From Maribacter aquimaris (GTDB lineage: Bacteria; Bacteroidota; Bacteroidia; Flavobacteriales; Flavobacteriaceae): a DNA stretch of 64,000 bases. Position 1 is the first letter of the stretch. Each line of letters opens with the position of its first letter. The position numbers were made by a program, and so were the translations under genes. This document shows positions 43,260-61,173 of the stretch, in pieces. The stretch is taken from assembly GCF_014596745.1 (NCBI RefSeq), contig NZ_JABTCF010000004.1, forward strand, positions 248,001-312,000, in the 5' to 3' direction. Under the pieces are notes generated by a model. That model worked only from the letters and a program-made list of their open reading frames with translations. It was not told the DNA's origin and did not search any database.

Positions 43260-46016
43260 ATGAAATTTATTTTTGTCCTTCTTCTTGCTTTACTAACTAC
43301 ACCTTTACGGTTATGCGGACAAAATCTTTTGCCGCCAATACACAATTATAAAATCTTTGAATATCAGGCAGACAGTAAGAATTGGGGATTATCGACCAAT
43401 AGTTCGGGTGAGTTATTTGTGGCAAACAATAGTGGTCTGCTACATTTCAATGGAGAAAAATGGGAACTCTACAAACTCCCCAACAATACAACGATCCGTT
43501 CTGTGGCCGAGATTGACGGAAAGATCTTTACAGGTTCGTATGAGGAGTTTGGATATTGGGTAAAGAATAAATTTGGTGTTTTAGAATACACCTCATTAAC
43601 CCATTTAATCAAAAACCATGTGTTTACGAGTGAGGAATTCTGGCAAATTTTACCCTATGGTGATGCTGTTCTATTTAGATCGTTCAATGGAATTTATGTT
43701 TTTAAAGATGATAAAATCGAGGTTATTGACCCTTCCTTTGTAGTAACCTTCATTACCGTATATAAAGATAGGATTTTGGTCGCCGGGGGTCATAACAGGC
43801 TTTACGAACTCATTAATGATGACTTGGAACCCTTGGAAGAACATGCGCTTTTTTCCAACAAGATCATTATCGCCATGGCTGAAATTGAAGAAGGCCTTCT
43901 TATTGGCACAAAACGGAACGGTTGTTTTATCATAAGTGATGGAAAGATAATGCCCTTTGAAACAGGTATCAATGCTCAATTAAAGCAATTTCAACTCAAC
44001 CAAATTTTACCGCTTACAGAAAACATAATCGCTTTTGGCACTATAAAGAATGGAATTTACCTCTATAATAAGGATAAAAAAAGCAGCCAGAAGGTAAACC
44101 GGCAAGTGGGATTGCAAAACAATACGGTGCTATCGATGACAACTTATAAAAACCAATTATGGGTAGGATTGGATAATGGCATTGATAGGATTCAACTAAA
44201 TTATCCTTTAACGTTTTATACGGATTATATGGGTGCCGTTGGCACCGTTTATGATATGGCCGTATATAAGGATGTCCTTTATATGGCCAGCAATACGGGC
44301 ATCTATTATTTTAAGGATGATGTTTTGCAATTTGTAGAAGGTTCACAAGGACATGTTTGGGATTTGAATGTTACACATGGGGATCTTTTCTGTGGCCACA
44401 ACACGGGTACGTTTAGGGTAAATGAAAGTAGTTTTGAGAAAATCTCGAATATTTCAGGTGGGTACCAGATTGTCAAGGTACCCGAATCCAATTCCTCTTT
44501 TATCCAGGGTACTTATATTGGTTTGGCCAAATATGAAAAGGATGGTCCCGACAATTGGATAGTTACACCAATTACCGGAATCAACAAACCTGTTAAATAT
44601 CTTTGTTTCGAAGATTCCCATACGCTCTGGGTCGCTCACCCCTATAAAGGGCTGTACCGGATAACCCTGAATGATACCTATGACGAAGTCATTGAGAAGG
44701 TTGAATTCACTGCTGATGACATACCAACCAATTACAACGTTAAGGTGTTTAATATTAGAAATCAGATCGCCCTTGATATTGAAGGGGTTTGGCACAGGTA
44801 TGACCCTATTCTAAAAAAAATCGAACTGTTTGAAGAGTTTCAAAGGTATAACCATAAAAATCTGGTATATCACGACGATGGGTCTTTTTGGTTTATTGAT
44901 AATGAAGGCCCCAAAAAGGTACTCTTCTCCGATTTAAAAGAGGTCAATTATATATTGGATGATATGTTATTGCAGAAACGATTGACCCCTGAGTCGGAAA
45001 ATGTAATCAAGTTAAATGATTCAATTTATTGTTTTACATTAAACGATGGTTTTGGGAAGCTCAACATATCTGAATTCCGTAACCAGTTTGAAAACTATGA
45101 ATTGCAAAAACCCCAACTTGTCTCTTTTGAAGATAAAGGGGGCACATATCCCCTGGATAGTGAAAAGTTCAAAATACCCAATAAACTTTCACAGGATATA
45201 AGGATAAACTTTGCCTCACCGGCCTTACGGGATGCCAAGTATTATTATAACCTAAAAGGACCTTTGGCGCAAACCGCTTATATTGACCATGGGCATATCC
45301 ATTTTCAAAATCTTCCTTTTGGCACGTATGCGTTGAACCTTTTCAGCGTAGGTATCGATAATGAACACTCAGAGGCCTATACAATACAATTTGAAATAGC
45401 ACCTCCATGGTATTTATCCAAAGTAAGCATCGCTCTTTATTTCCTGGCTTTTATAGGAATCATATTTCTAAGAAGAAAATATAACAGGTCGAAAATGGAG
45501 AAAAGGCATCTAGCCTTGAAAACCAAGTTTCTTAAGGACCAAGAGGAGAGAATGGCCAAAATGGAAAAAGAAAAATTAGAAAAAGAAATCAAGAAAAAAC
45601 AGAAAGAGCTGGCCCGGATTACCATGAACATGGCGGAAAAGAACAAGGTGATTCTCGAATTAAAAGAAATGTTACTGGTAAACAGGAGCCAGTTCTCGAA
45701 TCAAAAGCGTTATGGAACATTCATAAAAAAATTAGACAATTCGATCAAGGACGATGACGATTGGAAACATTTTGAAGTCAACTTCAAGGAACTCCATGAA
45801 GACTTTTTTGAAAACCTCTTAAAGATGTATCCCAAACTAACACCAAAAGACCTTAAGCTATGTGCTTATTTAAAAATGAACCTTACATCAAAAGAGATTG
45901 CCCCACTCATGGCAATTTCGAATAGAGGTGTTGAAATACATCGATATCGCCTAAGGAAAAAGTTAGGAATCGACAGCTCCCAGAACCTTTCCAACTTCTT
46001 GATCAAGTTTAATTGA
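43260..46016 (+). CDS. Propeller/Y_Y_Y sensor with LuxR-type HTH (PUL regulator)
   Basis: 918 residues. A signal peptide (1-20) is followed by two-component-regulator-type beta-propeller repeats (about 30-640; YGDAVLFRSFNGIYVFKDDK, cut here to FRSFNGIYVFKDD; KNQLWVGLDNGIDRIQL). A Y_Y_Y domain (about 650-735), one membrane helix (about 740-757) and a basic coiled coil lead to a LuxR-type HTH (859-918, LTSKEIAPLMAISNRGVEIH). No kinase or receiver is present, so the propeller signal passes directly to DNA. It is upstream of susC/susD and should switch the locus on when a glycan fragment binds in the periplasm. Confidence 0.9.
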   Translation: MKFIFVLLLALLTTPLRLCGQNLLPPIHNYKIFEYQADSKNWGLSTNSSGELFVANNSGLLHFNGEKWELYKLPNNTTIRSVAEIDGKIFTGSYEEFGYWVKNKFGVLEYTSLTHLIKNHVFTSEEFWQILPYGDAVLFRSFNGIYVFKDDKIEVIDPSFVVTFITVYKDRILVAGGHNRLYELINDDLEPLEEHALFSNKIIIAMAEIEEGLLIGTKRNGCFIISDGKIMPFETGINAQLKQFQLNQILPLTENIIAFGTIKNGIYLYNKDKKSSQKVNRQVGLQNNTVLSMTTYKNQLWVGLDNGIDRIQLNYPLTFYTDYMGAVGTVYDMAVYKDVLYMASNTGIYYFKDDVLQFVEGSQGHVWDLNVTHGDLFCGHNTGTFRVNESSFEKISNISGGYQIVKVPESNSSFIQGTYIGLAKYEKDGPDNWIVTPITGINKPVKYLCFEDSHTLWVAHPYKGLYRITLNDTYDEVIEKVEFTADDIPTNYNVKVFNIRNQIALDIEGVWHRYDPILKKIELFEEFQRYNHKNLVYHDDGSFWFIDNEGPKKVLFSDLKEVNYILDDMLLQKRLTPESENVIKLNDSIYCFTLNDGFGKLNISEFRNQFENYELQKPQLVSFEDKGGTYPLDSEKFKIPNKLSQDIRINFASPALRDAKYYYNLKGPLAQTAYIDHGHIHFQNLPFGTYALNLFSVGIDNEHSEAYTIQFEIAPPWYLSKVSIALYFLAFIGIIFLRRKYNRSKMEKRHLALKTKFLKDQEERMAKMEKEKLEKEIKKKQKELARITMNMAEKNKVILELKEMLLVNRSQFSNQKRYGTFIKKLDNSIKDDDDWKHFEVNFKELHEDFFENLLKMYPKLTPKDLKLCAYLKMNLTSKEIAPLMAISNRGVEIHRYRLRKKLGIDSSQNLSNFLIKFN

Positions 46017-46250
46017 TATTTTTTATGGGATTTCTAGTAATGGACCATAGAACCTACTACATCATTACTACATCAATATGTTAAAAATTAATATGGACTT
46101 AACACATCCACTACTGCAAACATCCTTATTATAGGGCCTCTGGAGGAATAAATAAATGATGTGTTTTTTATGTACCCCGTTGAGTTCCTCGACCACCGCC
46201 TAATTAGTAATTTGGTAAAAACTTAAACTAATAATTAAACATTATTCAAA

Positions 46251-49200
46251 ATGAGAAATACATTATTAGCAATACTGCTTTTTTTGTTTCAAATAGCAAT
46301 TTACGCACAGGATGGTGTTATGGTGCAGGGTACAGTTACCGATTCCGCGGGGCAACCCTTGCCAGGTGCCAGCGTTGTGGTTCAGGGAACTACTACAGGA
46401 ACACAAACTGATTTTGATGGTAATTTCACCCTGGACAACGTTCCATCCGATGGCATTCTATCCATCAGTTATCTAGGATTTGTCACCCAAGAGATAGGGG
46501 TTAATGGCAGAAGTGCTATTTCAGTCGCTTTGTCTGAGGATGCCCAAGCATTGGATGAAGTGGTCGTTGTGGGGTATGGAACCCAAAAAAAATCAGACCT
46601 GACCAGTTCTATAGTATCTGTTGACACAGAGAGTATGGAGAAAGTCCCAACCGGGCAATTAATGCAGGCGGTTCAAGGTAAAGCCGCAGGTGTTCAGATA
46701 AGTAGCCAAGGTTCCCCAGGGGAATCACCGGAAATCATTATTAGGGGTGTAAATTCCGTTTATGGGGATTCGAATCCATTATTTGTGGTGGATGGGGTGT
46801 TCTTTGACAGTATTGATTTCTTGAACGCTAGTGAGATAGAGAGTTTGTCTATTTTAAAAGACGCCTCTGCTGCGGCCATTTATGGTGTTGAGGCATCAAA
46901 TGGGGTCATCTTGATTACCACGAAGGGGGGTAAGTTCAATAGAAACGCAAGTATTTCCTATACAGGGTATACAGGGGTTCAAACAGCACAGAATGTACTT
47001 AAAATGGCGAACTCGGAACAGTTTGTGAATTTTGCATTGGAATCGGGGTCCGACTCTGAGATTGCCAGTGTAAACAGTGCTATGCAGCGTTTTGGACGTA
47101 GTAGGATCAACCCTAATGTACCCAACGTTAATACAGATTGGTATGATGAGGTTTTAAGAAAGGCAATGACCCAGAACCATGATATTTCGATTAATGGGGG
47201 ATCAGAGAACATTGCTTATTCCGTTGGGGGTAATTTCTTTTACCAAGATGGTATCCTTGATATGAACAATAGCTATGAACGCTTTAATCTAAGGACTAAA
47301 TTAGACATTAAGGCCAATGATTGGCTTAAAGTTGGTGGTAGTATCGTTTATAGTAATGCCACTAAATATGATGATGAGGCCTCGGCATGGCAGCTCGCCT
47401 ATTTTGCCGTACCTATTTTACCGGTTTATGATTATTTATATACCGGGGCTGATCCCCTTCCCTACTCAGACGCCAAGGAAATTGGATATAGGGGCAGTCA
47501 AAACCCTTTCCCTCTTATGGACAATTCCGATCTTAATAGTAAGATCCGTAGGACCGTAGCAAATTTCTATGCCGATTTTCAGCTTATCCCCGATCAATTG
47601 AACTTTAAAACCAGTTTATCCTATAATCATGCGGGTACCACGGGGCGATCAATAAAACTACCTTATTATGTAACCGATGATTACCAAAGAAGTGTTGACG
47701 AATCTTCCATAACCAGAAGCCAAGTGACCGCTGAGTCCTATGTATTGGATAATGTTTTAACGTATCAAAATACATTCGACGACCATGATCTTACTTTAAT
47801 GGGCGGTATGTCTTATAGGGACAACTATAATAGTTATTTCGGCACAACCGGTTATTTTGACCCAAGCGGGGCATTTGTTAGGGATAAGGAACAGACTTGG
47901 TATATTGAGAATACCTCCACGGATAGCCAAACATCCTATGATGGTGGTAGCCAATCGTATTGGTTCTCGTATTTTGGAAGAGCGGCGTATAAATATAAAA
48001 ACAAGTATTTGGCCTATGCCACATATAGGGCCGAGGGAACCAATAAATATGATGAAACCTATGTATACCTGCCCGCCTTTGGTTTGGGTTGGGTCCTATC
48101 TGAGGAATCCTTCATGAAAGATGTCAGTTTTGTCGATTACTTCAAATTACGGGGTGGCTGGGGACGCTTGGCCAATGGTTCCGTACCTGCCTCTGACGGA
48201 GGCGTCGGATCTAGCACCGTACAGACTGTTTTCAATAATCAATACTACACTGGAACACAGTTTGAAACAATCTCCGATAATATTAGCTGGGAATTTACAG
48301 AAGAAACCAATATTGGTATTTCTGCCAAATTTTTGGATAGTCGTTTGTCTTTGGAAGCGGATTACTTTATCAAGGACACCAAGGACATGGTCATTCCCTT
48401 GTCTCCCCTTGTGGGAACCGAGGTCAGTTACCAAAACGTGGGTAGCGTTAGGAACAAAGGTATAGAATTGGCTGTCGGTTATAGTGGGAAGATAGGCAAG
48501 GACTTTGGCTATTCCGTCAATGCGAATTTCAGCAAGCTTGAAAATGAAGTCACCGATTTGTATACACAGCCTTATATAGAAAGAGGTTCTGCCGAATTCA
48601 GGCAAATGATCATCGAAGGGCAACCAATAGATGTTTTTTACGGATATGATATTGTAGGGGTCTACCAGACCCAAGCGGAAATCGATGCCGATCCGGTTGC
48701 ACAATCGGCCATTGCGGGTGGTACCGACATTTCCCCTGGTTACTTTAAGTATAAGGATGTTGACGGTAGCGGCGAATTGGATGCCGACGATAGGGTTTAT
48801 CTTGGTGCCCCGGTCCCTGATTATTTTTATGGGGGTAGTATCAATTTAAATTATAAAAATTGGGATTTCTCCACTTCGTTCTACGGACAAGGCGGCAATG
48901 TGATCTTAAACAGGAACAGGGCGGAAGTAATATGGACCACCGGAAGAAATGTCGATGCGGAGTTGGCCAAAAATCGTTGGACAGGTGAAGGATCCACCAA
49001 TGCCTTCCCTTCCTCTGAGGGCTATAGACAATCTTGGAACCAGAAACTTTCCAACTTCTTTTTACAGGAGGGAGATTTCTTTAGGATCCAGAATATACAA
49101 TTAGCGTATACAATCAAAAACGATAAATTACCAGAAATCCGTTTTTCACTAACGGCAGATAGACCATTCCTTTGGACCAAAGGTTACAATGGCTTTAATC

Positions 49201-49283
49201 CGGAAGTCGGTTTCGATGGCATAGACAGTCAGACTTACCCCATTCCTTCTACGTATACTTTTGGAATGAGCATAAAAATATAA
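46251..49283 (+). CDS. SusC/RagA TonB-linked outer-membrane transporter
   Basis: 1010 residues. Signal peptide, then a carboxypeptidase-regulatory-like domain (about 25-100: VQGTVTDSAGQPLPGASVVV), a TonB-box region (DEVVVVGYGTQKKSDLT), plug domain (GKAAGVQISSQGSPGESPEI; ILKDASAAAIYG) and a C-terminal 22-strand barrel ending SIKI. It imports oligosaccharides across the outer membrane with the SusD protein downstream. It lies 235 bases after the regulator, and its leader starts the PUL operon. Confidence 0.95.
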   Translation: MRNTLLAILLFLFQIAIYAQDGVMVQGTVTDSAGQPLPGASVVVQGTTTGTQTDFDGNFTLDNVPSDGILSISYLGFVTQEIGVNGRSAISVALSEDAQALDEVVVVGYGTQKKSDLTSSIVSVDTESMEKVPTGQLMQAVQGKAAGVQISSQGSPGESPEIIIRGVNSVYGDSNPLFVVDGVFFDSIDFLNASEIESLSILKDASAAAIYGVEASNGVILITTKGGKFNRNASISYTGYTGVQTAQNVLKMANSEQFVNFALESGSDSEIASVNSAMQRFGRSRINPNVPNVNTDWYDEVLRKAMTQNHDISINGGSENIAYSVGGNFFYQDGILDMNNSYERFNLRTKLDIKANDWLKVGGSIVYSNATKYDDEASAWQLAYFAVPILPVYDYLYTGADPLPYSDAKEIGYRGSQNPFPLMDNSDLNSKIRRTVANFYADFQLIPDQLNFKTSLSYNHAGTTGRSIKLPYYVTDDYQRSVDESSITRSQVTAESYVLDNVLTYQNTFDDHDLTLMGGMSYRDNYNSYFGTTGYFDPSGAFVRDKEQTWYIENTSTDSQTSYDGGSQSYWFSYFGRAAYKYKNKYLAYATYRAEGTNKYDETYVYLPAFGLGWVLSEESFMKDVSFVDYFKLRGGWGRLANGSVPASDGGVGSSTVQTVFNNQYYTGTQFETISDNISWEFTEETNIGISAKFLDSRLSLEADYFIKDTKDMVIPLSPLVGTEVSYQNVGSVRNKGIELAVGYSGKIGKDFGYSVNANFSKLENEVTDLYTQPYIERGSAEFRQMIIEGQPIDVFYGYDIVGVYQTQAEIDADPVAQSAIAGGTDISPGYFKYKDVDGSGELDADDRVYLGAPVPDYFYGGSINLNYKNWDFSTSFYGQGGNVILNRNRAEVIWTTGRNVDAELAKNRWTGEGSTNAFPSSEGYRQSWNQKLSNFFLQEGDFFRIQNIQLAYTIKNDKLPEIRFSLTADRPFLWTKGYNGFNPEVGFDGIDSQTYPIPSTYTFGMSIKI

Positions 49284-49304
49284 TCATATAAAAATATCAG
49301 ACAA

Positions 49305-50837
49305 ATGAAATCAACGATTTATATACAATGTTTACTTCTGGTTTGTGGTTTGTACTTAACCAGCTGTGACAATAAGTTAGACGAGGACGCAGAACTTAGG
49401 TCGTATCAAAATGATATTGATTACGCTAGCGAAGAAGGTGCTTATGGGGCTCTTGTAGGTGCTTACGAGACATTCCAAGATGTAGGTTGGGAACAGATTC
49501 CGTTATTAGCCGTTAGGGGAGATGACGTAAACGCCGGTGGGCTGGGAGACCAACAAGGTTTCGCTGACACCGATAATTACACCTATGACAATAATTTTTG
49601 GATGTACAATTCCCTTTGGGAGAACTGGTTCCAGGATATTACGCAAATAACATCCCAGATAGAGCAGTTGGAACTGTATAGGGATGGAGGTGTAAACAGT
49701 AGTTTAATCGATCAATATATTGCCGAGGCCAAGACCCTTAGGGGATTCATAACCCTCGAATTATCAAGGGTATTCGGTGATGTTTATAGGATTGAAAGTA
49801 CGGATCAATCCGAGATTACGGTAGAAACCAAAGATGATTTGATGCAATGGATATCAGACCAAATGGATGAAACGATTCCAGATTTATTGGATGTAGCACC
49901 TAGCAATAGAACCGATATTCCCGGGGGTATCACCAAATACACAGCATTGGCGGTACAGGCCATGGCCAATTTAGAATTAAAAAACTATCAGGCAGTTGCT
50001 GATGCCACGGGAGAAATCATCAACTCCGGAAAGTTTGAACTATATGACGATTTTTATCAATTGTTCAAGATTCCCGGAAAATTGTGCAATGAGAATCTCT
50101 TAGAAATCCAATACTCTGATTTTGGCCAATCCTCTGGTGATAATGTAGCCCATTTATTTGAATTCTATGCTCCACAAAACTGGACCGCGGCAGTACCTGA
50201 GGCCACTAGCGGATGGGGTTTTTACGAACCTAGTTTTAAGTACATCAAATTTATGCTCGACCGTGGGGAAACCGTACGATTGGAGACCAGTGTTCTGTTT
50301 ACCGATCGTGGCATCGCGGAAATACAAACAGATTCTGATTATTCCGATTTACCTGACTTTGTCACCAATACCACAAGGGATGGGGATATTATCAATGATT
50401 ATTCCAGGGCCTATTTCGCGAGTGGTAAGCACTATTTGCCCTCAATCCAATTAACTGAAGGTAGAACAACTTACGGTACCAACAAAAATTATACGGTCAT
50501 CCGTTATGCAGAAGTTCTTTTAATGTATGCAGAAGCATTAACGCGCGGCGCTTCCGGAACAGCCGGTTCTGCTGATGATGCCGTAAATCTGATTAGGAGC
50601 CGGGCAGGTATGCCGACCTTGAGTGGGGTTACCAGTGACGATGTCATGGACGAGAAATTTGCAGAATTGGCCATGGAATGGGGAATTAGGTATTACGACA
50701 TGATACGATTGGGTGAAACATCCGAATTAAGCTATGATGGAAGGACCTTTACCATGGACAAGGCTTACTTGCCTTATCCATTGGAACAATTGGATATAAG
50801 TCCAATTCTAGACGAATATAATAACCAAAATAACTAA
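49305..50837 (+). CDS. SusD/RagB family glycan-binding lipoprotein
   Basis: 510 residues. Lipobox at Cys21 (LTSCDNKLDEDAEL), with an acidic tract after the Cys that fits surface export. Tetratricopeptide-like helices (YIAEAKTLRGFITLELSRVFGDV, short core AKTLRGFITLELSRVFGD) and a C-terminal SusD region (EVLLMYAEALTRGASG; AVNLIRSRAGMPTL; MEWGIRYYDMIRLGE) are typical. It caps the SusC barrel and binds the target glucan. It lies 21 bases after susC. Confidence 0.93.
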   Translation: MKSTIYIQCLLLVCGLYLTSCDNKLDEDAELRSYQNDIDYASEEGAYGALVGAYETFQDVGWEQIPLLAVRGDDVNAGGLGDQQGFADTDNYTYDNNFWMYNSLWENWFQDITQITSQIEQLELYRDGGVNSSLIDQYIAEAKTLRGFITLELSRVFGDVYRIESTDQSEITVETKDDLMQWISDQMDETIPDLLDVAPSNRTDIPGGITKYTALAVQAMANLELKNYQAVADATGEIINSGKFELYDDFYQLFKIPGKLCNENLLEIQYSDFGQSSGDNVAHLFEFYAPQNWTAAVPEATSGWGFYEPSFKYIKFMLDRGETVRLETSVLFTDRGIAEIQTDSDYSDLPDFVTNTTRDGDIINDYSRAYFASGKHYLPSIQLTEGRTTYGTNKNYTVIRYAEVLLMYAEALTRGASGTAGSADDAVNLIRSRAGMPTLSGVTSDDVMDEKFAELAMEWGIRYYDMIRLGETSELSYDGRTFTMDKAYLPYPLEQLDISPILDEYNNQNN

Positions 50838-50845
50838 ACGATATC

Positions 50846-52561
50846 ATGAGAAATAGTATAAAATCCTTATTGTTTGTTTTAGGGCTCTTGGTAGTCTCCT
50901 GTGAAGATGGTATCGATCCATTAACATATGTGGATCCAGGAGAAGATGCTTCGGCGCCTCAAATCACGATCAGCACCCCTACCGATGGGATGGAAATCAA
51001 GGTTTTTGAAGATGTAACCTCTTTGGATGTAAGTATGGAGGTTACAGATGATATTGAAGTAAAGGATATCGTTGTTCTTTTGGATGGCAACGAAATAGCC
51101 TCGTTCAACAATTTTTTGGACTATAGAAGGGCTATTGAGGAATTTACCTATGACAACCTAGCCAATGGTAGCCATACACTCACCGTAACGGCGAGTGACC
51201 TTGATGGAAAAACATCGACTTCTTCAGTGGATTTTTCCAAGGCACCTCCTTATACCCCTTTGTTCGATGGGGAGTCTTTTTACATGGCCTTTGATGGCGA
51301 TTATAGGGATCAAATAGGGTTCGAATTGGCAACAGAGATAGGTGCCCCAGGATTCGAAAATCCCGGTCATGACGGAATAGGTGCTTATTTAGGGGCAACG
51401 GATTCTTATTTGTCATTCCCTGCGGAAGGTTTGTTGTCCAATGAGTTTAGTGCATCATTTTGGTATAAAGTCGATGCGGATCCTGATCGGGCAGGTATAT
51501 TGGTCGTTGGTGACGATGCCGATGATCGCCTTCAAGGATTTAGAGTGTTCCGGGAAGCTAGTGGTGATGACCAGAGAATTAAAATGAATGTAGGTACCGG
51601 TGTTGGGGAAAGCTGGAATGACGGTGGTCTTATCAATCCGTCTTTAGCGGAATGGGTCCATATTACCGTTACCATTTCCAATACCAAGAACACCATATAC
51701 TTCAATGGTGTCGAGGTAAATTCTTCCGATATGTCAGCTCCTATAGATTGGACGGGTTGCGAAGAGTTCACTATTGGTTCTGGTGGCCCTACGTTTGATT
51801 ATTGGGGACATGGTTCGGACAATAGTGCTATCGATGAACTTAGGTTCTTCAACAAAGAACTATCCGTTGAGGAAGTGGTTAACATTTATGGAGGGGAATT
51901 AGAGGAAAAATACCATGGTTCAACGTTGTATATCCCTTTTGACGGTTCCAATACCGATTTGGTCAATAATACCGTACCAACAATTGTGGGTACTCCCGGT
52001 TTTGCAGGTGAGGGTAAAGTCGGAACCAACGCCTATGCCGGCGCAACGGATTCTTATTTGACTCTACCGATAACCGGATTGTTCGGCAATGGGTTTAGCG
52101 GCGCATTTTGGTATAAGGTAAGTGCAGATGCCGATAGGGCAGGAATTTTAACGGTCGCCCCCCCGATGATCGGTACAGACAACGATCTTTCTGCCGGCTT
52201 TAGGTTATTCAGGGAAGGTAGTACTGATGAACAGCGTATAAAACTACATGTTGGGGCTGTTGAGGATAATGTTTGGAACGATGGCGATGTGATTGATGTT
52301 ACTGCAGGGGAATGGGTGCATATTGCGTTCACCGTATCCGATACCGAGACCCAAATCTATTTCAACGGTACCGCTGTGGCAAACTCCGGGGACATGACCG
52401 ATAAAACCATGAATTGGGAAAACTGTTCCATTTTATCCATAGGCTCCGGAGCACCCAATTTTATCGGTTGGAACCATCTATCGGATACCAGTTTGATAGA
52501 CGAACTTTATCTCTTCGACAGGGTTTTGTCCACAGAGGAAATCCAGGCCCTAATGGAATGA
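50846..52561 (+). CDS. Tandem LamG surface lipoprotein (candidate glycan-binding protein)
   Basis: 571 residues. Lipobox at Cys19 (LLVVSCEDGIDP). An Ig-like beta domain (about 38-130; TISTPTDGMEIKVFEDV) is followed by two clearly duplicated concanavalin-A-like (LamG) domains, about 140-350 and 352-571. Both share the segments ATDSYL, FWYKV and RAGIL with the same spacing. It is placed where surface glycan-binding proteins sit in Sus-like operons, so binding of the substrate glucan is inferred. Gap to susD is 8 bases. Confidence 0.85.
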   Translation: MRNSIKSLLFVLGLLVVSCEDGIDPLTYVDPGEDASAPQITISTPTDGMEIKVFEDVTSLDVSMEVTDDIEVKDIVVLLDGNEIASFNNFLDYRRAIEEFTYDNLANGSHTLTVTASDLDGKTSTSSVDFSKAPPYTPLFDGESFYMAFDGDYRDQIGFELATEIGAPGFENPGHDGIGAYLGATDSYLSFPAEGLLSNEFSASFWYKVDADPDRAGILVVGDDADDRLQGFRVFREASGDDQRIKMNVGTGVGESWNDGGLINPSLAEWVHITVTISNTKNTIYFNGVEVNSSDMSAPIDWTGCEEFTIGSGGPTFDYWGHGSDNSAIDELRFFNKELSVEEVVNIYGGELEEKYHGSTLYIPFDGSNTDLVNNTVPTIVGTPGFAGEGKVGTNAYAGATDSYLTLPITGLFGNGFSGAFWYKVSADADRAGILTVAPPMIGTDNDLSAGFRLFREGSTDEQRIKLHVGAVEDNVWNDGDVIDVTAGEWVHIAFTVSDTETQIYFNGTAVANSGDMTDKTMNWENCSILSIGSGAPNFIGWNHLSDTSLIDELYLFDRVLSTEEIQALME

Positions 52562-52619
52562 TAATTTATTGAACGATTTTAATTGAGTTGTTTGAGTTAG
52601 ATAGTTTTTAAAATTGATT

Positions 52620-53984
52620 ATGAGATTAATCTTGATTACAATGGCCGTTACTAGTTTGTTAGTTGGTTGTAACGGCCATTCTTCTAAAAAGAAAAGAGCA
52701 GTATCCGAGACCAAGGCTGACACTTTGTACTTGTCAGACAATGACCTATTAATGGATACGGTGCAAAAACAGACCTTTGAGTATTTTTGGGAAGGTGCGG
52801 AACCTGTTTCGGGCCTTGCACGCGAACGTATCCATTTGGATAACATTTACCCTACCCATGACAAGGATATTATTACCATTGGGGGTTCGGGATTTGGACT
52901 TATGGCCATTCTGGTCGGAGTTGAACGTGGATTTATAACCCGGGAACAAGCGCTGGAACGCTATGAAAAGGCAATTGACTTTTTGGCGAAGGCCGATCGT
53001 TTCCACGGTGCTTGGCCCCATTGGTTGATGCCTAGTGGAAAAGTAGCTCCCTTTAGCACCAAGGATAATGGTGGGGACCTTGTGGAAACGGCATTTTTGA
53101 TTCAAGGAATGTTGACCGTCCAGGAATATTTTAAAGATGGCAATGAGAGGGAAAAAGAGCTAGTGGACAAAATTCAAAAGCTTTGGGAAGAAGTGGAATG
53201 GGATTGGTATACCCAAGGAGGGCAAAACGTCCTGTATTGGCATTGGTCGCCCACCCATGGTTGGGATATGAACTTCCCCGTCGGAGGCTATAACGAGGCC
53301 CTTATCATGTACATATTGGCAGCGGCCTCCCCTACGCATCCCATTAACAAGGAAGTTTATGAAAAGGGATGGGCAAGAAACGGAGCGATCAAAAAGGACA
53401 CCGTCTTTTATGGTTTGCCTACCATCCTCGATCATTACGAGCACGATGCTTCTCCCGTCGGACCCATGTTCTGGGCCCACTATTCGTACCTTGGTCTTGA
53501 TCCTAACGGACTCACCGATCAATATGCTGATTACAAAAAATTGAATACGAACCACGCACTTATACAGTATAAATATGCTGTGGACAATCCTAATGGCTAT
53601 AAAGGATATGGCGAAAATTGTTGGGGACTGACTTCCAGTTATTCCATGGATGGTTATGCGGGCCATAGACCCGACAGGGATTTAGGGGTGATTTCCCCCA
53701 CTGCAGCACTTTCATCCATGCCGTATACACCTACGGAAAGTATGCAATTCTTAAAATATATGTATAAGGAACAGGATTCCTTAATTGGAAAATACGGACC
53801 TTTTGATGCCTTTAGCCTTGAAAACAAATGGTATGTACCCCGATATTTAGCCATAGATCAAGGGCCTATCCCCGTGATGATAGAAAATTACAGAACAGGG
53901 ATGTTATGGAAATTGTTCATGAAAAATGGGGATGTCCAAACCGGATTGCGAAAATTGGGGTTCAACTCCCCCTATCTAAATTAA
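52620..53984 (+). CDS. GH144-like endo-beta-1,2-glucanase lipoprotein (first copy)
   Basis: 454 residues from ATG 52620; a TTG at 52614 is possible. Lipobox at Cys17 (LLVGCNGH) followed by SSKKKRA, basic, without an acidic export signal, which suggests retention at the periplasmic face. It matches the Pfam Glycoamylase domain used by GH144: QTFEYFWEGAEPVSGLARER, RFHGAWPHWLMPSGK, GGDLVETAFLIQG, GWDMNFPVGGYNEALIMY, NCWGLTSSY and AIDQGPIPVMIENYRTG. The Asp and Glu in GGDLVETAF are candidate catalytic or binding residues. Substrate, beta-1,2-glucan, is inferred from the family. The copy downstream starts 2 bases after its stop. Confidence 0.82.
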   Translation: MRLILITMAVTSLLVGCNGHSSKKKRAVSETKADTLYLSDNDLLMDTVQKQTFEYFWEGAEPVSGLARERIHLDNIYPTHDKDIITIGGSGFGLMAILVGVERGFITREQALERYEKAIDFLAKADRFHGAWPHWLMPSGKVAPFSTKDNGGDLVETAFLIQGMLTVQEYFKDGNEREKELVDKIQKLWEEVEWDWYTQGGQNVLYWHWSPTHGWDMNFPVGGYNEALIMYILAAASPTHPINKEVYEKGWARNGAIKKDTVFYGLPTILDHYEHDASPVGPMFWAHYSYLGLDPNGLTDQYADYKKLNTNHALIQYKYAVDNPNGYKGYGENCWGLTSSYSMDGYAGHRPDRDLGVISPTAALSSMPYTPTESMQFLKYMYKEQDSLIGKYGPFDAFSLENKWYVPRYLAIDQGPIPVMIENYRTGMLWKLFMKNGDVQTGLRKLGFNSPYLN

Positions 53985-53985
53985 T

Positions 53986-55362
53986 ATGATAAAGACCAAG
54001 GTTTACATATTTATACTATGCTCGGTATTGTGGTCATGTTCCAGCGGGGATGATTATACCTACGTTCCTACGGAATTACCGGACGAATCGGAGGAAACGG
54101 TTGAGGAACCAGAAATTACGGATGAGGAATTGTTGGACCTGACCCAAAGGGAGACCTTCAAATATTTTTGGGATTTTGCCGAGGCCAATTCTGGTTGCGC
54201 CAGGGAACGTTACCACCCAGACGATACTTCAAATAGTGCCAATGTGGTGACCACCGGAGGAACCGGTTTTGGGTTGATGGCCCTTCTAGTAGGCATCGAA
54301 AGAGGATTTATTTCGAGGGAGGAAGGTGTAGAACGATTTGATAAAATTCTGACCTTTTTGGAATCGGCCGACCGTTTTCACGGGGCCTGGCCTCATTGGA
54401 TCAATGGCACCTCCGGCGAGGTAATTCCATTTAGTACCGAGGATGATGGGGGCGATTTGGTCGAAACGGCTTTTTTGGCCCAGGGACTTATCTGTGTTAA
54501 GGAGTATTTTAAAGAAGGCTCGGATACCGAAAAAGCATTGGCAGAAAAGGCCGATACGCTTTGGAAAGGGGTTGAGTGGGACTGGTATACGCAAGATGAT
54601 AATGCGCTTTACTGGCATTGGAGTCCAAACTACGGGTTTAACATAAATCTAAAGCTCTCAGGGTATAACGAGGTGTTGATCACTTACATAATGGCGGCGG
54701 CCTCTCCGGATTATGGTATCAATAAGGAGGTATATTCCTCAGGTTGGGCAGGCAACGGTAGTATTTTGTCCTCGAACACGGCTTACGGCTATCCGCTTTT
54801 GGTAAAACATAATGGGGCGGAAAACTATGGGGGACCTTTATTCTGGGCCCATTATTCCTACTTGGGTCTTGATCCGAACGGACTCTCAGATGACTATGTA
54901 AATTATTGGGATGTCAATGTAAACCACTCCAAGATCAATTATAAGTTTTGCGTGGAGAATCCAAACAACTTTGAAGGGTATGGTGAGGATTGTTGGGGAC
55001 TTACGGCCAGCTATTCCAGAAATTCGGATGGTAGTATGGGCTATGCCGCCCATAAACCGGAAAATGACCTTGGGATTGTTTCCCCTACAGCGGCCATAAG
55101 CTCAATGCCCTATACTCCGGATGAATCTTTGGCGGCCTTGCGCTATTTTTATAAGAACAAGGATAAACTGTTGGGCGTAGCAGGATTTTATGATGCCTTT
55201 AGCCCGGAATATAACTTTTGGGTGGCAGAAGCCTATTTGGCCATTGACCAAGGACCCCAGATTATTATGATTGAAAACTATAGGACCGGATTGCTTTGGG
55301 ATTTGTTTATGCAAAACGAGGACGTGCAAGCTGGCTTGAAAACACTTAACTTTACTTATTGA
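53986..55362 (+). CDS. GH144-like endo-beta-1,2-glucanase lipoprotein (second copy)
   Basis: 458 residues. Lipobox at Cys18 (VLWSCSSGDDYTY), followed by a long acidic stretch (DESEETVEEPEITDEE), which suggests export to the cell surface. The catalytic domain repeats the motifs of the first copy: ETFKYFWDFAEANSGCARER, FHGAWPHWINGTSGE, GGDLVETAFLAQG, GYNEVLITYIMAAAS, DCWGLTASYSRN and AIDQGPQIIMIENYRTG. The pair is a tandem duplication. The stop overlaps the next start (TGATG). Surface endo-cleavage before import is inferred. Confidence 0.82.
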   Translation: MIKTKVYIFILCSVLWSCSSGDDYTYVPTELPDESEETVEEPEITDEELLDLTQRETFKYFWDFAEANSGCARERYHPDDTSNSANVVTTGGTGFGLMALLVGIERGFISREEGVERFDKILTFLESADRFHGAWPHWINGTSGEVIPFSTEDDGGDLVETAFLAQGLICVKEYFKEGSDTEKALAEKADTLWKGVEWDWYTQDDNALYWHWSPNYGFNINLKLSGYNEVLITYIMAAASPDYGINKEVYSSGWAGNGSILSSNTAYGYPLLVKHNGAENYGGPLFWAHYSYLGLDPNGLSDDYVNYWDVNVNHSKINYKFCVENPNNFEGYGEDCWGLTASYSRNSDGSMGYAAHKPENDLGIVSPTAAISSMPYTPDESLAALRYFYKNKDKLLGVAGFYDAFSPEYNFWVAEAYLAIDQGPQIIMIENYRTGLLWDLFMQNEDVQAGLKTLNFTY

Positions 55363-56156
55363 TGATGGTGCGTAAATATGTTTTTTTTTGTCTTTTGTTT
55401 TTAGGGACGGGACTTATGGCCCAAGCCCAAAACACCTCCCTTTTTAAGGAAGAAAAATTAATTGGAAACGGGGACACACTTTTATATCGTGTCCTGTACC
55501 CCCAAAATTTTGATAAAAACACCTCTTACCCTTTGGTCTTTTTTTTACATGGCGCCGGGGAAAGGGGAAGTGATAATACAAAACAGCTGACCCATGGCAG
55601 CACATTATTTACCAATGAAAAAAACCGATCCTTTTTTCCTGCCATTGTAGTCATGCCCCAATGTCCACAGGATGATTATTGGGCCCAGGTCAATGTAGAT
55701 CGGAGTAATTATCCTATCCAACTTGATTTTCAATTTGAAAAAGGCCCGACAAAAGCCATGGGCATGGTCATTTCCTTATTGGAAGAATTTAAGCAAAAGC
55801 GTTACGTTAACAAGCATCAGGTTTATTTGATGGGCTTGTCTATGGGAGGCATGGGCACCTATGAACTTCTGGCCAGAAAATCCCATACTTTTGCCGCTGC
55901 CATACCAATTTGTGGGGCTGGAGATCCCAAACAGGTAAAAAACTACGCCTTAAAAACACCTATATGGGCTTTCCACGGGGCTAAGGATAATGTTGTAGAC
56001 CCATTGCATTCTTTTGAAATGGTAACGGCATTGCTCAAAGAAGGGGCCTTTCCCCGATTCACGGTATATGATTTCGCAAACCACAATAGTTGGGACCCTG
56101 CATTTTCAGAACCTGATTTATTGCCATGGCTCTTTTCACACCAACTTAAAAAATAA
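55362..56156 (+). CDS. Secreted alpha/beta-hydrolase (putative carbohydrate esterase)
   Basis: 264 residues from ATG 55362, which overlaps the GH144 stop by one base. Signal peptide (VFFCLLFLGTGLMAQAQ). Catalytic triad of an alpha/beta-hydrolase: nucleophile in GLSMGGMG, Asp in HGAKDNVVD and His in FANHNSWD; oxyanion region HGAGERGSDN. The fold resembles PHB-depolymerase/LpqC or CE1-like esterases common in PULs. It may remove acyl groups, such as succinyl or acetyl, from the glucan; this is inferred from position only. Confidence 0.8.
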   Translation: MMVRKYVFFCLLFLGTGLMAQAQNTSLFKEEKLIGNGDTLLYRVLYPQNFDKNTSYPLVFFLHGAGERGSDNTKQLTHGSTLFTNEKNRSFFPAIVVMPQCPQDDYWAQVNVDRSNYPIQLDFQFEKGPTKAMGMVISLLEEFKQKRYVNKHQVYLMGLSMGGMGTYELLARKSHTFAAAIPICGAGDPKQVKNYALKTPIWAFHGAKDNVVDPLHSFEMVTALLKEGAFPRFTVYDFANHNSWDPAFSEPDLLPWLFSHQLKK

Positions 56157-56180
56157 AACACCGGAACTTAGATCAAATCT

Positions 56181-56210
56181 TTTCATTGGAAGGGGAAACC
56201 CTCAATGAAA
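56181..56210 (+). promoter_or_regulatory. GNRA-capped hairpin upstream of the GH3 gene
   Basis: TTTCATTG-GA-AGGG-GAAA-CCCT-CAATGAAA: an 8-bp outer and 4-bp inner stem with a two-base bulge and a GAAA tetraloop, 47 bases before the GH3 start. No clear T-run follows, so mRNA processing or stability is as likely as termination. Confidence 0.45.
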
Positions 56211-56256
56211 TTGGCTTTTGGATAAACTAAAAAATCATAATAAAAGAATAATTCAA

Positions 56257-58539
56257 ATGAACAATTGGAAGACAATACATTATTTACCCCTATTACTTTT
56301 TTGTTTTGTATTCACCATAACCCAGGCACAAGAGACCAATCCGTTTGTCGAAGGACTCCTAAATAAAATGACCTTGGATGAAAAAATAGGTCAGCTGAAT
56401 TTACCAGGGGGCGGTGATGTTATAACCGGACAAGCAAAGAGCTCCGATATCGCGAATAAAATTGCAGCAGGTAAGGTTGGTGGTTTGCTTAGCCTTACCA
56501 CAGTGGAGAAAATAAGGGAAGTCCAAAAAATCGCTGTGGAAAAAAGTCGTTTAAAAATTCCGTTATTATTTGGTTTGGATGTTATACATGGTTATAAAAC
56601 CACATTCCCGATACCTTTAGGGTTGTCAACTTCCTGGGATATACCCTTAATAGAAAAAACCGCTCGAATGGCTGCACAAGAAGCTAGTGCGGACGGTATC
56701 AACTGGACCTTCTCCCCAATGGTCGATATATCCAGGGACCCGCGTTGGGGAAGGGTGTCCGAAGGTTCTGGGGAAGACCCCTATTTGGGAAGTGAAATCG
56801 CAAAGGCCATGGTTCGTGGATATCAGGGCGATGATCTTACGAAAAACAATACCATTATATCCTGTGTAAAGCATTTTGCCCTTTATGGGGCTTCCGAAGC
56901 AGGGCGGGATTATAATACGGTAGATATGGGTAGGATACGTATGTATAATGAATATCTACCTCCATATAAAGCTGCAATCAATGCTGGGGTTGGTTCGGTA
57001 ATGGCGTCATTCAATGAAATTGATGGGATTCCCGCCACGGGAAATAAATGGTTGCTGACCGATTTATTACGAAAACAATGGGGGTTTGAAGGTTTTGTCG
57101 TAACTGATTATACGGGGATTAATGAGATGATCGCCCACGGAATGGGCGATTTGCAGACAACTTCGGCTCTGGCCTTAAATGCAGGTGTTGATATGGACAT
57201 GGTGGGAGAAGGGTTTTTAACTACCCTTTCCAAGTCCTTGGCTGAAGGTAAAATAAAGATCGAACAGATTGATAATGCCGTCCGTAGGATCTTAAAGGCC
57301 AAATATGATCTGGGCCTATTCGATGATCCCTATAAATATTGCGAGGTAAAAAGAGCCAAAAAAGAAGTTTACACGAAAGAAAACAGGGATTTTGCCAGGG
57401 AGGTCGCTACGCAATCCATGGTATTACTAAAGAACGAAAACCAATTGCTGCCCTTAAAAAGAACCGGTACCATTGCCCTTGTCGGGCCTTTGGCCAATAC
57501 CAGTGAGAACATGGCGGGCACATGGAGCGTATCTACCGAACAAAGTAAATCAATCGCCCTTTTGGAGGGAATAAGGGAGGCGGCCGGCAAGAAGGTGAAG
57601 ATAACCTATGCCAAGGGAAGCAACCTAACCTACGATCCCGAACTGGAGGAAAACGCGACCATGTTCGGAAAGAGCCTTAATAGGGACAATAGGTCCGATG
57701 CCGAGTTGCTGAACGAGGCCCTTGAGGTAGCCGAGAAGGCCGATGTAATCGTGGCGGCATTGGGTGAAGCGGCAGAATTTAGTGGGGAGAGCAGCAGTCG
57801 AACGAATATTGAAATTCCACAGGTACAAAAGGACTTGTTGAACGCCTTGCTAAAAACTGGTAAACCTGTGGTCTTGGTACTGTTTACGGGTAGGCCCCTT
57901 GTTTTGAAGGAAGAAAGTAAAACAGTACCGGCCATCCTTAATGTATGGTTCCCTGGAAGTGAAGCCGGTTTGGCCATTTCCGATGTTCTTTTTGGGGATG
58001 TTAATCCATCAGGGAAATTGACCGCTACATTTCCACAAAGTGTTGGACAGATACCAATTTATTACAATCACAAAAATACAGGACGCCCACTTCAAAACAA
58101 GGAAGGTAAATTTGAAAAATTCACTTCCAACTATATTGATGAACGAAACGAACCGGTCTATCCCTTTGGTTACGGTCTAAGCTATACTACGTTCAAATAC
58201 GAAAACCTTAACATAAGCTCCGATACCATGCTGGAAAATGACTCCTTGGCGGTAACCGTAAACGTTACCAATACGGGCAATTACGATGGCAAGGAAGTAG
58301 TGCAGTTGTATATCCGGGATCTTGTCGGTTCGGTTACCAGACCGGTCAAGGAATTGAAAGGGTTTCAAAAAATAGCGCTGAAAAAGGGAGAAACCAAAAA
58401 GGTGACTTTTATTTTGACCCTTGAAGACCTCAAATTTTACAATTATAACCTGGACTTTGTCGCCGAACCCGGAGAATTCGAAGTTTTTGTTGGGGGGGAC
58501 TCCAATGTGGAACAAAAAGTAACATTTACACTTAAATAA
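56257..58539 (+). CDS. GH3 family beta-glucosidase (BglX-like)
   Basis: 760 residues from ATG 56257 (MNNWKTIHYLPLLLFC); the TTG-initiated frame from 56218 is less likely. Signal peptide, then the GH3 N-terminal barrel (KIGQLNLPGGGD; FGLDVIHGYKTTFPIPLGL; CVKHFALYGASEAGRDYN). The nucleophile is Asp284 in GFVVTDYTGINEM. The C-terminal domain contains GEAAEFSGESSSR, with the likely acid/base Glu, and a fibronectin-III-like end (YIRDLVGSVTRPVKELKGF). In beta-1,2-glucan loci GH3 enzymes split sophoro-oligosaccharides to glucose in the periplasm, the role inferred here. Confidence 0.92.
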   Translation: MNNWKTIHYLPLLLFCFVFTITQAQETNPFVEGLLNKMTLDEKIGQLNLPGGGDVITGQAKSSDIANKIAAGKVGGLLSLTTVEKIREVQKIAVEKSRLKIPLLFGLDVIHGYKTTFPIPLGLSTSWDIPLIEKTARMAAQEASADGINWTFSPMVDISRDPRWGRVSEGSGEDPYLGSEIAKAMVRGYQGDDLTKNNTIISCVKHFALYGASEAGRDYNTVDMGRIRMYNEYLPPYKAAINAGVGSVMASFNEIDGIPATGNKWLLTDLLRKQWGFEGFVVTDYTGINEMIAHGMGDLQTTSALALNAGVDMDMVGEGFLTTLSKSLAEGKIKIEQIDNAVRRILKAKYDLGLFDDPYKYCEVKRAKKEVYTKENRDFAREVATQSMVLLKNENQLLPLKRTGTIALVGPLANTSENMAGTWSVSTEQSKSIALLEGIREAAGKKVKITYAKGSNLTYDPELEENATMFGKSLNRDNRSDAELLNEALEVAEKADVIVAALGEAAEFSGESSSRTNIEIPQVQKDLLNALLKTGKPVVLVLFTGRPLVLKEESKTVPAILNVWFPGSEAGLAISDVLFGDVNPSGKLTATFPQSVGQIPIYYNHKNTGRPLQNKEGKFEKFTSNYIDERNEPVYPFGYGLSYTTFKYENLNISSDTMLENDSLAVTVNVTNTGNYDGKEVVQLYIRDLVGSVTRPVKELKGFQKIALKKGETKKVTFILTLEDLKFYNYNLDFVAEPGEFEVFVGGDSNVEQKVTFTLK

Positions 58540-58661
58540 ATTGGTGTATCGAAATCTAAACTATCTTAATATGCTTTTGATAAACTTTCTCAAAGGCTTC
58601 ATTTAAGAAGGTTATATTTTGCTTATTATCCATAATTAAAGTTTCTCATAAGAAATAATCC

Positions 58662-60305
58662 ATGTACAAAAGAACACTATTATTCGTTTCTATTGTAAGT
58701 ATAGTCTTTTCATGTAAGCAAGAGAAAAGTTCAGGGATAGTCGATAAAAAAAGTCCGAATATTATTTTTATCATGTCCGACGACCATGCCTCCCAAGCCA
58801 TTAGTGCTTATGGTCACCCTATAAGTCAAATAGCACCTACACCAAACATTGACCGTTTGGCGGCAAATGGGGCGTTGTTCAACCATAATTTTGTCACCAA
58901 TTCAATCTGTGGGCCCAGCAGGGCCGTAATCCTAACAGGAAAACACAGCCATATCAATGGTTTTCGACAGAATGGAGACCATTTTGATGGGAATCAACCC
59001 ACCTTGCCCAAACTACTAAAAAAAGCGGGCTATCAAACCGCTATTGTTGGCAAATGGCATTTACATGACTACCCTCAAGGCTTTGACCATTGGAAGATCA
59101 TCGTCGACCAAGGCAATTATTACAATCCCGACTTTATTGAAAATGGCGATACTACCCGAATTAAAGGGTATGCCACGGATATCATCACCCACGACGCCTT
59201 GGATTGGTTGCAACATAAAAGAAATGATTCAACTCCTTTCTTTTTAATGGTACACCATAAAGCCCCGCACAGGAACTGGATGCCGGCCTTACGCCATGCC
59301 AATAAATACGACTCCGTGCAATTTCCTTTACCCGAGTCCTTTTTTCCGACCTTCAAGAACCAACAGGCGGCACAAGAACAATTGCAAACCATTTACAAAG
59401 ACATGTACGAAGGACATGATCTTAAAATGACCAAAGCATATGGTAGCACCGAATTGGCCCACAATCCTTGGACCACGGATTTTGATAGAATGTCCTTGGA
59501 ACAGCGTGAGCAATGGGATGCATCCTATTTACCAAAAAACAATGCTTTCCATAAAGCCAATTTGTCCGGTAAAGCACTGGCCGAATGGAAAGGACAACGT
59601 TATTTACAGGATTACATGGCTACCATTGCGGCAGTGGACGAAAGTGTCGGAAGTATTTTGGATTATTTGGAAGAAAGTGGTTTGGCTGAAAACACCTTGG
59701 TAGTTTATACTTCCGATCAAGGTTTTTATCTCGGGGAAAAGGGTTGGTTCGATAAACGTTTTATGTACGAAGAGTCCTTTGGTTCCCCTTTGTTGATGCA
59801 GTTACCCGGAATCATTACGCCCGGAACGGAAATCGATGCCTTAGTACAGAATTTGGATTTTGCACAAACATTCCTTGATTTTGCCAACCATAGCGAATTA
59901 GGGGTGGATATGCAAGGGCAATCCTTCAAGGGCCTATTGGATGGCAGCATGGATGAAAAGGATTTTCGGGATATTGTGTATTACCACTATTACGACTATC
60001 CCGCCTTTCACATGGTCAAAAAACATTATGGTATTCGTACAAAACGCTATAAACTGATTCATTTCTATGATGATATAGACACTTGGGAGCTTTACGACTT
60101 GGAAAAAGACCCCCATGAGCTTCACAATGCCTATTCAGACAGAGAATATAGTAGCGTTGTAGCCAACATGCACAGAAAATTGGATTCGGTGCAAAAAGTC
60201 TATAAAATAACGGAAAAAGAATATCAAAAAGCCCCAAAAGAAAAGATTGATAAGGCCTATAAACAGTTTAAAAGACTAAGAGGTTCGACAACGCCTAAAC
60301 AATAA
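58662..60305 (+). CDS. Cys-type sulfatase lipoprotein (family S1)
   Basis: 547 residues. Lipobox at Cys18 (IVFSCKQEKSSG). The sulfatase active-site motif is CGPSR in SICGPSRAVILTGKHSH, with Cys83 the residue that a maturation enzyme would convert to formylglycine. Metal and sulfate-binding segments are SDDHASQAISAYG, KWHLHDYPQGFDHW, HHKAPHRNW and TSDQGFYLGEKGWFDKR. The sequence resembles N-acetylglucosamine-6-sulfatase-type subfamilies. It follows the GH3 gene by 122 bases on the same strand, so a role on a sulfated or otherwise modified substrate of this locus is possible. No maturation enzyme is in the window. Confidence 0.85.
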   Translation: MYKRTLLFVSIVSIVFSCKQEKSSGIVDKKSPNIIFIMSDDHASQAISAYGHPISQIAPTPNIDRLAANGALFNHNFVTNSICGPSRAVILTGKHSHINGFRQNGDHFDGNQPTLPKLLKKAGYQTAIVGKWHLHDYPQGFDHWKIIVDQGNYYNPDFIENGDTTRIKGYATDIITHDALDWLQHKRNDSTPFFLMVHHKAPHRNWMPALRHANKYDSVQFPLPESFFPTFKNQQAAQEQLQTIYKDMYEGHDLKMTKAYGSTELAHNPWTTDFDRMSLEQREQWDASYLPKNNAFHKANLSGKALAEWKGQRYLQDYMATIAAVDESVGSILDYLEESGLAENTLVVYTSDQGFYLGEKGWFDKRFMYEESFGSPLLMQLPGIITPGTEIDALVQNLDFAQTFLDFANHSELGVDMQGQSFKGLLDGSMDEKDFRDIVYYHYYDYPAFHMVKKHYGIRTKRYKLIHFYDDIDTWELYDLEKDPHELHNAYSDREYSSVVANMHRKLDSVQKVYKITEKEYQKAPKEKIDKAYKQFKRLRGSTTPKQ

Positions 60306-60400
60306 ATAGGTATTGTGCATGCCTATCAATACGGGAAATACAAGGTGTTTTCAAACCCGTAACTTTCCCGAAAACATAGTTCATGTCTGTAATCCACCCC

Positions 60401-61102: not shown

Positions 61103-61173
61103 ACTATTTGCTTTTGATATTAACAATTCACTTCCAACTACTTAAAGCTACAATCATTTACTTCCGATTAAAA

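Follow-up and report, generated by a model that had tools for sequence, protein, structure and literature searches.

Sulfatase genes have been described beside GH144 genes in marine Bacteroidetes. In the section of their survey that counts families, Lapebie et al. (2019; PMC6499787) report an added sulfatase in the GH144 loci of marine organisms, from which a sulfated polysaccharide, unknown but ubiquitous in the sea, was inferred. A passage on Maribacter dokdonensis 62-1 (PMC8072126) places one GH3 gene, two GH144 genes, susCD and sulfatase genes in a cluster upstream of an alginate locus, and GH144 genes are reported there in all of the Maribacter and Zobellia compared. Here we consider a nine-gene locus at positions 43260-60305 of a 64,000-nucleotide stretch (the window) of the Maribacter aquimaris genome. 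It encodes a LuxR-type regulator, SusC and SusD, a LamG lipoprotein, two GH144 enzymes, an alpha/beta-hydrolase, a GH3 enzyme and a sulfatase. The sulfatase belongs to a clade that is found almost exclusively beside GH144, and we think that the locus is on balance probably a Sus-type operon for the uptake and degradation of a beta-1,2-glucan that has 6-O-sulfate on some of its glucoses and also bears acyl esters.

The linkage was established in a sample of 299 Flavobacteriaceae genomes, with cut-offs of E <= 1e-100 for GH144 and E <= 1e-150 for the sulfatase and at most four candidates scored per genome. GH144 was found in 75 of the genomes and a sulfatase in 95. The sulfatase list has a gap between 60 and 55% identity to the window sulfatase, and the clade line, at 60%, was set post hoc at this gap. 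It separates 49 clade genes (at least 60% identity, in 48 genomes) from 79 sister genes (at most 55%, in 63 genomes). All 48 clade-bearing genomes have GH144. Distances were taken to the best GH144 match per genome, second matches being dropped; 47 of the 49 clade genes lie within 20 kb of it, against none of the 79 sister sulfatases, and GH144 is present in 27 of the 63 genomes that hold the sisters. The Fisher p value for the linkage, 2e-36, assumes independent genomes, which these are not. Outside the 20 kb limit are a clade gene on a 7-kb contig (L121), which also carries GH3, GH2 and BD-FAE homologues, and a second copy in genome G153, 1.29 Mb away. Where the best GH144 is at least 64% identical to that of the window the clade is present in 42 of 52 genomes, where it is more distant in six of 23, giving 48 of 75 in total. 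The preliminary description of this DNA had held a sulfatase in such a locus to be out of the ordinary. This is not the situation, given these frequencies and a combination in print since 2019 (PMC6499787).

Gene order was examined in 80 related loci, 59 of which have a regulator homologue on the same strand. A same-strand sulfatase is present in 46 of the 66 that reach at least 9.5 kb downstream, and in 46 of the 48 loci having both genes the sulfatase and GH144 are part of an unbroken co-directional run, with a median gap before the sulfatase of about 10 bp. The comparison of syntenic loci proposed in the preliminary description thus finds the sulfatase conserved, and separate transcription in relatives, which it had also raised, is confined to a minority. 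Five loci, L130, L237, L238, L239 and L240, have the sulfatase on the opposite strand or apart from the run (divergent and adjoining the regulator in L237 and L238, two genes past it in L130 and L239), which means that co-transcription is not universal. The linkage of sulfatase and GH144 survives such rearrangement. A second, different sulfatase (43% identical, with a CNPSR motif) is found inside the GH144 run of L239 (297-1886). We consider it likely that the clade sulfatase and GH144 have one glycan as their common substrate.

The window sulfatase has the PF00884 and PF16347 domains and the nucleophile motif CGPSR (residues 83-87) of an S1 enzyme, and FGE-type (PF03781) genes are present in the genome. 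Its nearest PDB chain is 9s03, at 66% identity. This chain is 99.8% identical to a Mariniflexile fucanivorans gene (L069), so that the clade is already represented by a crystal structure; a literature search found no paper on 9s03 or on the sulfatase in it. Outside the clade, the PDB entries most similar to the window sulfatase are 7p24 (50% identity) and 5g2v (48%), which we take to be the S1_11 enzymes BT3177 and BT4656. In a tree of 73 rows, comprising 44 clade rows (9s03 among them) and a sister set sampled as 20 of the 79 genes, all 44 clade rows form one group with support of 100/99. The Cys of CGPSR is found in 43 of these rows, the remaining row, the 9s03 chain, having Ser. Asp364 and Arg366 (in FDKR) and His450 are kept in the window sulfatase and in all 44 clade and 20 sister rows; they are presumably the O3- and O4-binding residues discussed in a review of S1_11 sulfatases. 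Because its best relatives outside the clade are 7p24 and 5g2v and these recognition residues are kept, the window sulfatase appears to be S1_11-like, with predicted 6-O-sulfatase activity. The same residues point to specificity for O6 of a gluco-configured sugar: in the passages of the review that treat S1_11 (PMC10154612) the His binds O3, and the Asp/Arg pair O4, of a gluco-configured 6-sulfated sugar.

Those passages also describe the C2/N-acetyl region as variable and absent from roughly half of the subfamily, aquatic members especially, and name a Tyr and a Trp in the N-acetyl pockets of the two S1_11 enzymes (PMC10154612). In the window sulfatase the loop at residues 249-252, before DLK, reads YEGH; Tyr249 and Gly251 are found in 44 of 44 clade rows and His252 in 41 of 44. 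Position 252 is Tyr in 7p24 and Trp in 5g2v, probably the very residues named for the N-acetyl pockets, and the clade is changed in this loop, in which known S1_11 enzymes seem to hold the N-acetyl group. That the substrate is O6-sulfated glucose within a beta-1,2 chain we rate at somewhat better than an even chance.

A further difference adjoins His450. At position 449 all 44 clade rows and five of five GH144-linked sulfatases of Prolixibacteraceae have Phe, against none of the 20 unlinked rows, which have Glu (14), Val (4), Ile (1) or Pro (1). It is the sole column of 547 in the alignment in which the clade and the Prolixibacteraceae share such a pattern. As the linked Prolixibacteraceae sulfatases fall among unlinked rows in the 73-row tree, the change to Phe looks convergent, gained once outside the clade. 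Phe449 is also present in nine further clade genes and in the unlinked G153 copy. A second sample held 30 sulfatase genes: three linked ones and 27 others (two of these repeat genes of the first set) for which GH144 is at least 33 kb off, on another contig or without a match in the genome. Repeats L202 and L214, and L173 (the same gene as L224), were dropped from the comparison set. Phe449 is found in three of the three linked genes and none of the 27 others, of which three have Trp449. The linked gene of genome G614 (L173/L224) was considered as an independent gain of Phe and rejected, a quick tree placing it beside the clade with support of 1.0. The broader rule that an aromatic residue at 449 marks GH144 linkage is ruled out by Trp449 in three unlinked genes; Phe449 alone tracks the linkage, the G153 copy excepted. 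S1_11-like sulfatases with Trp449, and no GH144 in the stretch, were seen in L231 and L233 (genomes G518 and G545) and L232 (G570); a neighbour of the L233 sulfatase is GH16-like by eye.

The nine genes of the locus all lie on the forward strand. Open-reading-frame coordinates and domain labels, the latter from Pfam and NCBIfam searches of the window proteins, bear out the gene set of the preliminary description (a propeller/LuxR regulator, SusC, SusD, a tandem LamG protein, two GH144 enzymes, a hydrolase, GH3 and a sulfatase on one strand), save that the propeller part of the regulator has no match among the Pfam models searched.

43260-46016, + strand: sensor/LuxR-family (GerE) regulator of 918 amino acids; GerE domain by Pfam
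46251-49283, + strand: SusC/RagA TonB-dependent outer-membrane transporter; TIGR04056, 807 bits
49305-50837, + strand: SusD-like lipoprotein; PF07980 (SusD_RagB), acidic residues after the lipid Cys by eye
50846-52561, + strand: lipoprotein with Big_7 (PF17957) and two Laminin_G_3 stretches (PF13385, twice), likely surface glycan-binding
52614-53984, + strand: GH144a, endo-beta-1,2-glucanase-like lipoprotein; PF10091, E142/E211 equivalents kept
53986-55362, + strand: GH144b, second GH144-like lipoprotein; PF10091, a run of acidic residues behind the Cys (by eye) hints at surface exposure
55359-56156, + strand: alpha/beta-hydrolase, esterase-like and secreted, with a GLSMG motif; Peptidase_S9/Abhydrolase_2-type, PDB 3doh
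56218-58539, + strand: GH3 beta-glucosidase, secreted, likely start Met14; full GH3 match, PDB 5xxl/5xxm
58662-60305, + strand: S1_11-like Cys-type sulfatase lipoprotein, member of the GH144-linked clade; Sulfatase and SGSH_C domains, CGPSR at 83-87, Asp364/Arg366, Phe449-His450

A SusC/SusD pair, a regulator, a surface-type binding protein, an endo-enzyme and an exo-glucosidase are thus present in one run, the make-up of a Sus-type polysaccharide-utilization locus. Inspection of the N-termini by eye gives lipoprotein-type signals for SusD, the LamG protein, GH144a, GH144b and the sulfatase, and ordinary signal peptides for the alpha/beta-hydrolase and GH3. The largest intergenic gaps are the 234 bp between the regulator and SusC and the 122 bp between GH3 and the sulfatase, the latter being the longest among the enzyme genes; the terminator scan listed no terminator-like site in it. 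Site counts in the promoter and terminator scans were not above those for shuffled sequence, which makes both uninformative. Beyond the sulfatase an imperfect inverted repeat, seen by eye at 60310-60400 and unlisted by the terminator scan, separates it from a convergent gene (60401-61126, - strand) for a 241-residue protein with no Pfam match, and is perhaps a shared terminator.

Both GH144 candidates match PF10091 (E 3e-81 and 4e-78) and align to chain 5gzh of CpSGL, an endo-beta-1,2-glucanase of Chitinophaga pinensis, over nearly their full lengths, one over residues 17-455 of 456 (E 4e-177) and the other over 44-456 of 458 (E 6e-167). Equivalents of E142 and E211, the acidic residues named, and so numbered, in PMC12102758, are kept in both (within GGDLVET and GYNE). 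The two proteins fit GH144 beyond the Pfam name, which supports a prediction of beta-1,2-glucan hydrolysis. GH144a is 91-92% identical to the GH144 of two named Maribacter. The PDB relatives of the GH3 are 5xxl and 5xxm, entered as 'periplasmic beta-glucosidase' (E 0), which we take to be the sophorose-active BT_3567 of B. thetaiotaomicron. A beta-1,2 linkage specificity is suggested by this GH144 and GH3 homology and, with the catalytic residues kept, the preliminary reading of a beta-1,2-glucan-type locus stands. The alpha/beta-hydrolase is only distantly akin to solved esterases, 3doh being the nearest (E 8e-37). No match to MdoG/OpgG and no PF10091 protein besides GH144a and GH144b were found in this genome (4.86 Mb). 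Synthesis of the glucan by the organism itself is for these reasons unlikely; Maribacter aquimaris probably eats rather than makes it.

The wider distribution of the accompanying genes separates the esterase from the sulfatase. Among 40 GH144 loci from across the class, mostly of other families and taken as larger stretches so that context could be judged, an alpha/beta-hydrolase is found in 19, GH43 in 16 and a sulfatase in only two (L173, S1_11-like, and L163, 31% identical). An esterase thus often accompanies beta-1,2-glucan use with or without a sulfatase, and the sulfatase is a lineage-bound add-on. Such a distribution of the esterase is what acyl groups on natural beta-1,2-glucans would lead one to expect. 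The preliminary description had drawn on esterase and sulfatase together for a substrate carrying ester or sulfate groups; this remains the simplest reading of the two genes, but lumping them does not fit frequencies as different as these. The 80 related loci have added genes of their own: GH43 in 33, an endonuclease/exonuclease/phosphatase (EEP) family protein in 24, a BD-FAE esterase in 23, GH2 in six, and GH97 and a metallophosphoesterase in five each. The EEP protein is secreted, recurs in GH144 loci (L056:18503-19339 and 23 more), often just past the sulfatase, and is possibly a phosphodiesterase for phosphate-type substituents. The GH43-like protein (L005:12770-14503 and 31 more loci) has F5/8-C and fibronectin-type parts and occurs whether or not the sulfatase is present.

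We propose the following route. The LuxR-type protein would turn the operon on. The LamG lipoprotein and SusD would bind the glycan at the cell surface, where GH144b, a surface-type lipoprotein, would cut it, and SusC would take up the fragments. Once these are in the periplasm, the sulfatase would strip the O6 sulfate and the alpha/beta-hydrolase the acyl groups, GH144a would trim the chains to short beta-1,2-gluco-oligosaccharides and GH3 would free glucose from them. Gene content, catalytic motifs and the near-exclusive linkage of the sulfatase clade to GH144 are observed, whereas the parts given here to the esterase, to localization and to regulation are predictions.

Several observations weigh against this proposal. 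The clade is lacking from 27 of the 75 GH144-bearing genomes (10 of the 52 with close GH144 and 17 of the 23 with distant GH144), and 20 of the 66 loci that reach at least 9.5 kb downstream show no sulfatase in that part. Eight of the 10 genomes with close GH144 were inspected (L122-L129): one locus ends soon after GH144b, three (L123, L124 and L129) have GH3 and GH43 but no sulfatase in the stretch, and the rest vary. Three of the 44 clade rows have Tyr252, contrary to a strict loop rule. One Marinilabiliaceae gene with loose linkage (7.6 kb away, with three opposite-strand genes between) has Trp449, and the three unlinked occurrences of this residue are in one genus. The linked genes of the second sample are two clade members and the clade sister of G614, with no independent gain, so that the Prolixibacteraceae are the one source of the case for convergence. 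Searches of open-licence literature brought up no natural sulfated beta-1,2-glucan, nothing pertinent on sulfated periplasmic or beta-1,2-glucan or on glucose-6-sulfate, and no paper that names the glycan or assays the sulfatase. The second G153 copy (L120), with Phe449 kept, belongs to a locus with no GH144 in the stretch; this locus (L120:7771-17000; G153:C1, about 2.43 Mb) comprises susCD, a glycerophosphodiester phosphodiesterase (GDPD), GH16, a cytochrome/TPR protein, GH31 and GH92.

GH43, GH2 or GH97 genes are extra in many of the related loci, so the glycan may be a heteropolymer. It could be a sulfated algal or bacterial heteropolysaccharide built only in part of beta-1,2-glucosyl stretches and sulfated on another sugar, such as 6-sulfated L-galactose or GlcNAc, with the window locus a reduced version. 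The BD-FAE and EEP genes of the related loci, the other glycosidases around the second G153 copy and the activity on L-galactose-6-sulfate that part of the S1_11 literature records all fit such a polymer. We nevertheless hold it to be rather unlikely: in the window and in L003 and L044, the loci closest to it, GH144 and GH3 are the only glycosidases of the run, accompanied by the hydrolase and the sulfatase, the sulfatase clade goes with GH144, and GH43 reaches 16 of the 40 class-wide loci, of which just two have a sulfatase.

Nor need a sulfatase fold imply sulfate. Phosphoglycerol is found on beta-1,2-glucans from other bacteria, and removal of this or another O6 ester, for example a phosphodiester, would require no sulfated glycan. 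Phosphoesterase-type genes in the related loci (EEP and metallophosphoesterase) and a weak NCBIfam match, below cut-off, to the PehA phosphoric/sulfuric ester hydrolase lean that way. The nearly invariant Cys of CGPSR, the sulfatase names of the solved relatives and the marine enrichment in the family-counting section of PMC6499787, which fits sulfate, make this improbable. Least probable of all, to the point of near dismissal, is that the sulfatase serves scavenging, has nothing to do with the locus and lies at its end by chance. The 122-bp gap would suit this, but the closeness of 47 of the 49 clade genes to GH144 and the 46 unbroken runs would not.

The near-exclusive occurrence of the clade beside GH144 supports the earlier printed idea that a sulfated form of this glucan exists in the sea. 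More tentatively, and with the chances rather against it, the clade may be a distinct S1_11 lineage, with a convergent change at 449 in Prolixibacteraceae, specialized on 6-O-sulfated glucose bearing beta-1,2-linked glucose at O2. Within a beta-1,2-glucan C2 of every internal residue carries the chain and O3, O4 and O6 are free, so that desulfation inside the chain could be open to an enzyme that reads O3 and O4 and has lost its C2 pocket. If this reading is true, the sea would hold a 6-O-sulfated beta-1,2-glucan that is widespread and has yet to be isolated. The lineage linkage, the 9s03 structure and a sugar-binding loop unlike that of the GlcNAc-6-sulfatases invite a direct enzyme assay and offer a means of probing for the glycan and the organisms that make it.

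How does the locus compare with described systems? The loci of PMC6499787, from marine Bacteroidetes, likewise pair GH144 with a sulfatase within a susCD locus. Both this combination and the idea of a sulfated glycan are already in print; new here are the sulfatase lineage tied to GH144, its residue differences and the standing of the sulfatase as an add-on, the family-counting section of that paper stating neither the identity of the sulfatase nor a single lineage or residues. The M. dokdonensis 62-1 cluster is from the same genus and has the same gene set, and the passage describing it names no substrate past glucosidase or endoglucanase activity (PMC8072126). The occurrence of GH144 in all Maribacter compared in that passage differs from our sample, in which five of 12 Maribacter genomes have GH144 and three of these five a sulfatase at least 83% identical to that of the window. 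BT3177 and BT4656, which act on 6S-GlcNAc and 6S-GlcNS, share the nucleophile motif, the Asp/Arg pair and the His with the window sulfatase and differ from it in loop 249-252 and residue 449, at 48-50% identity; according to the S1_11 passages of PMC10154612 they come from mucin and heparin loci. CpSGL (5gzh/5gzk) resembles the window GH144s in near full-length alignment and in E142 and E211, whereas the window has two GH144 paralogues, set in a Sus-type operon with a sulfatase.

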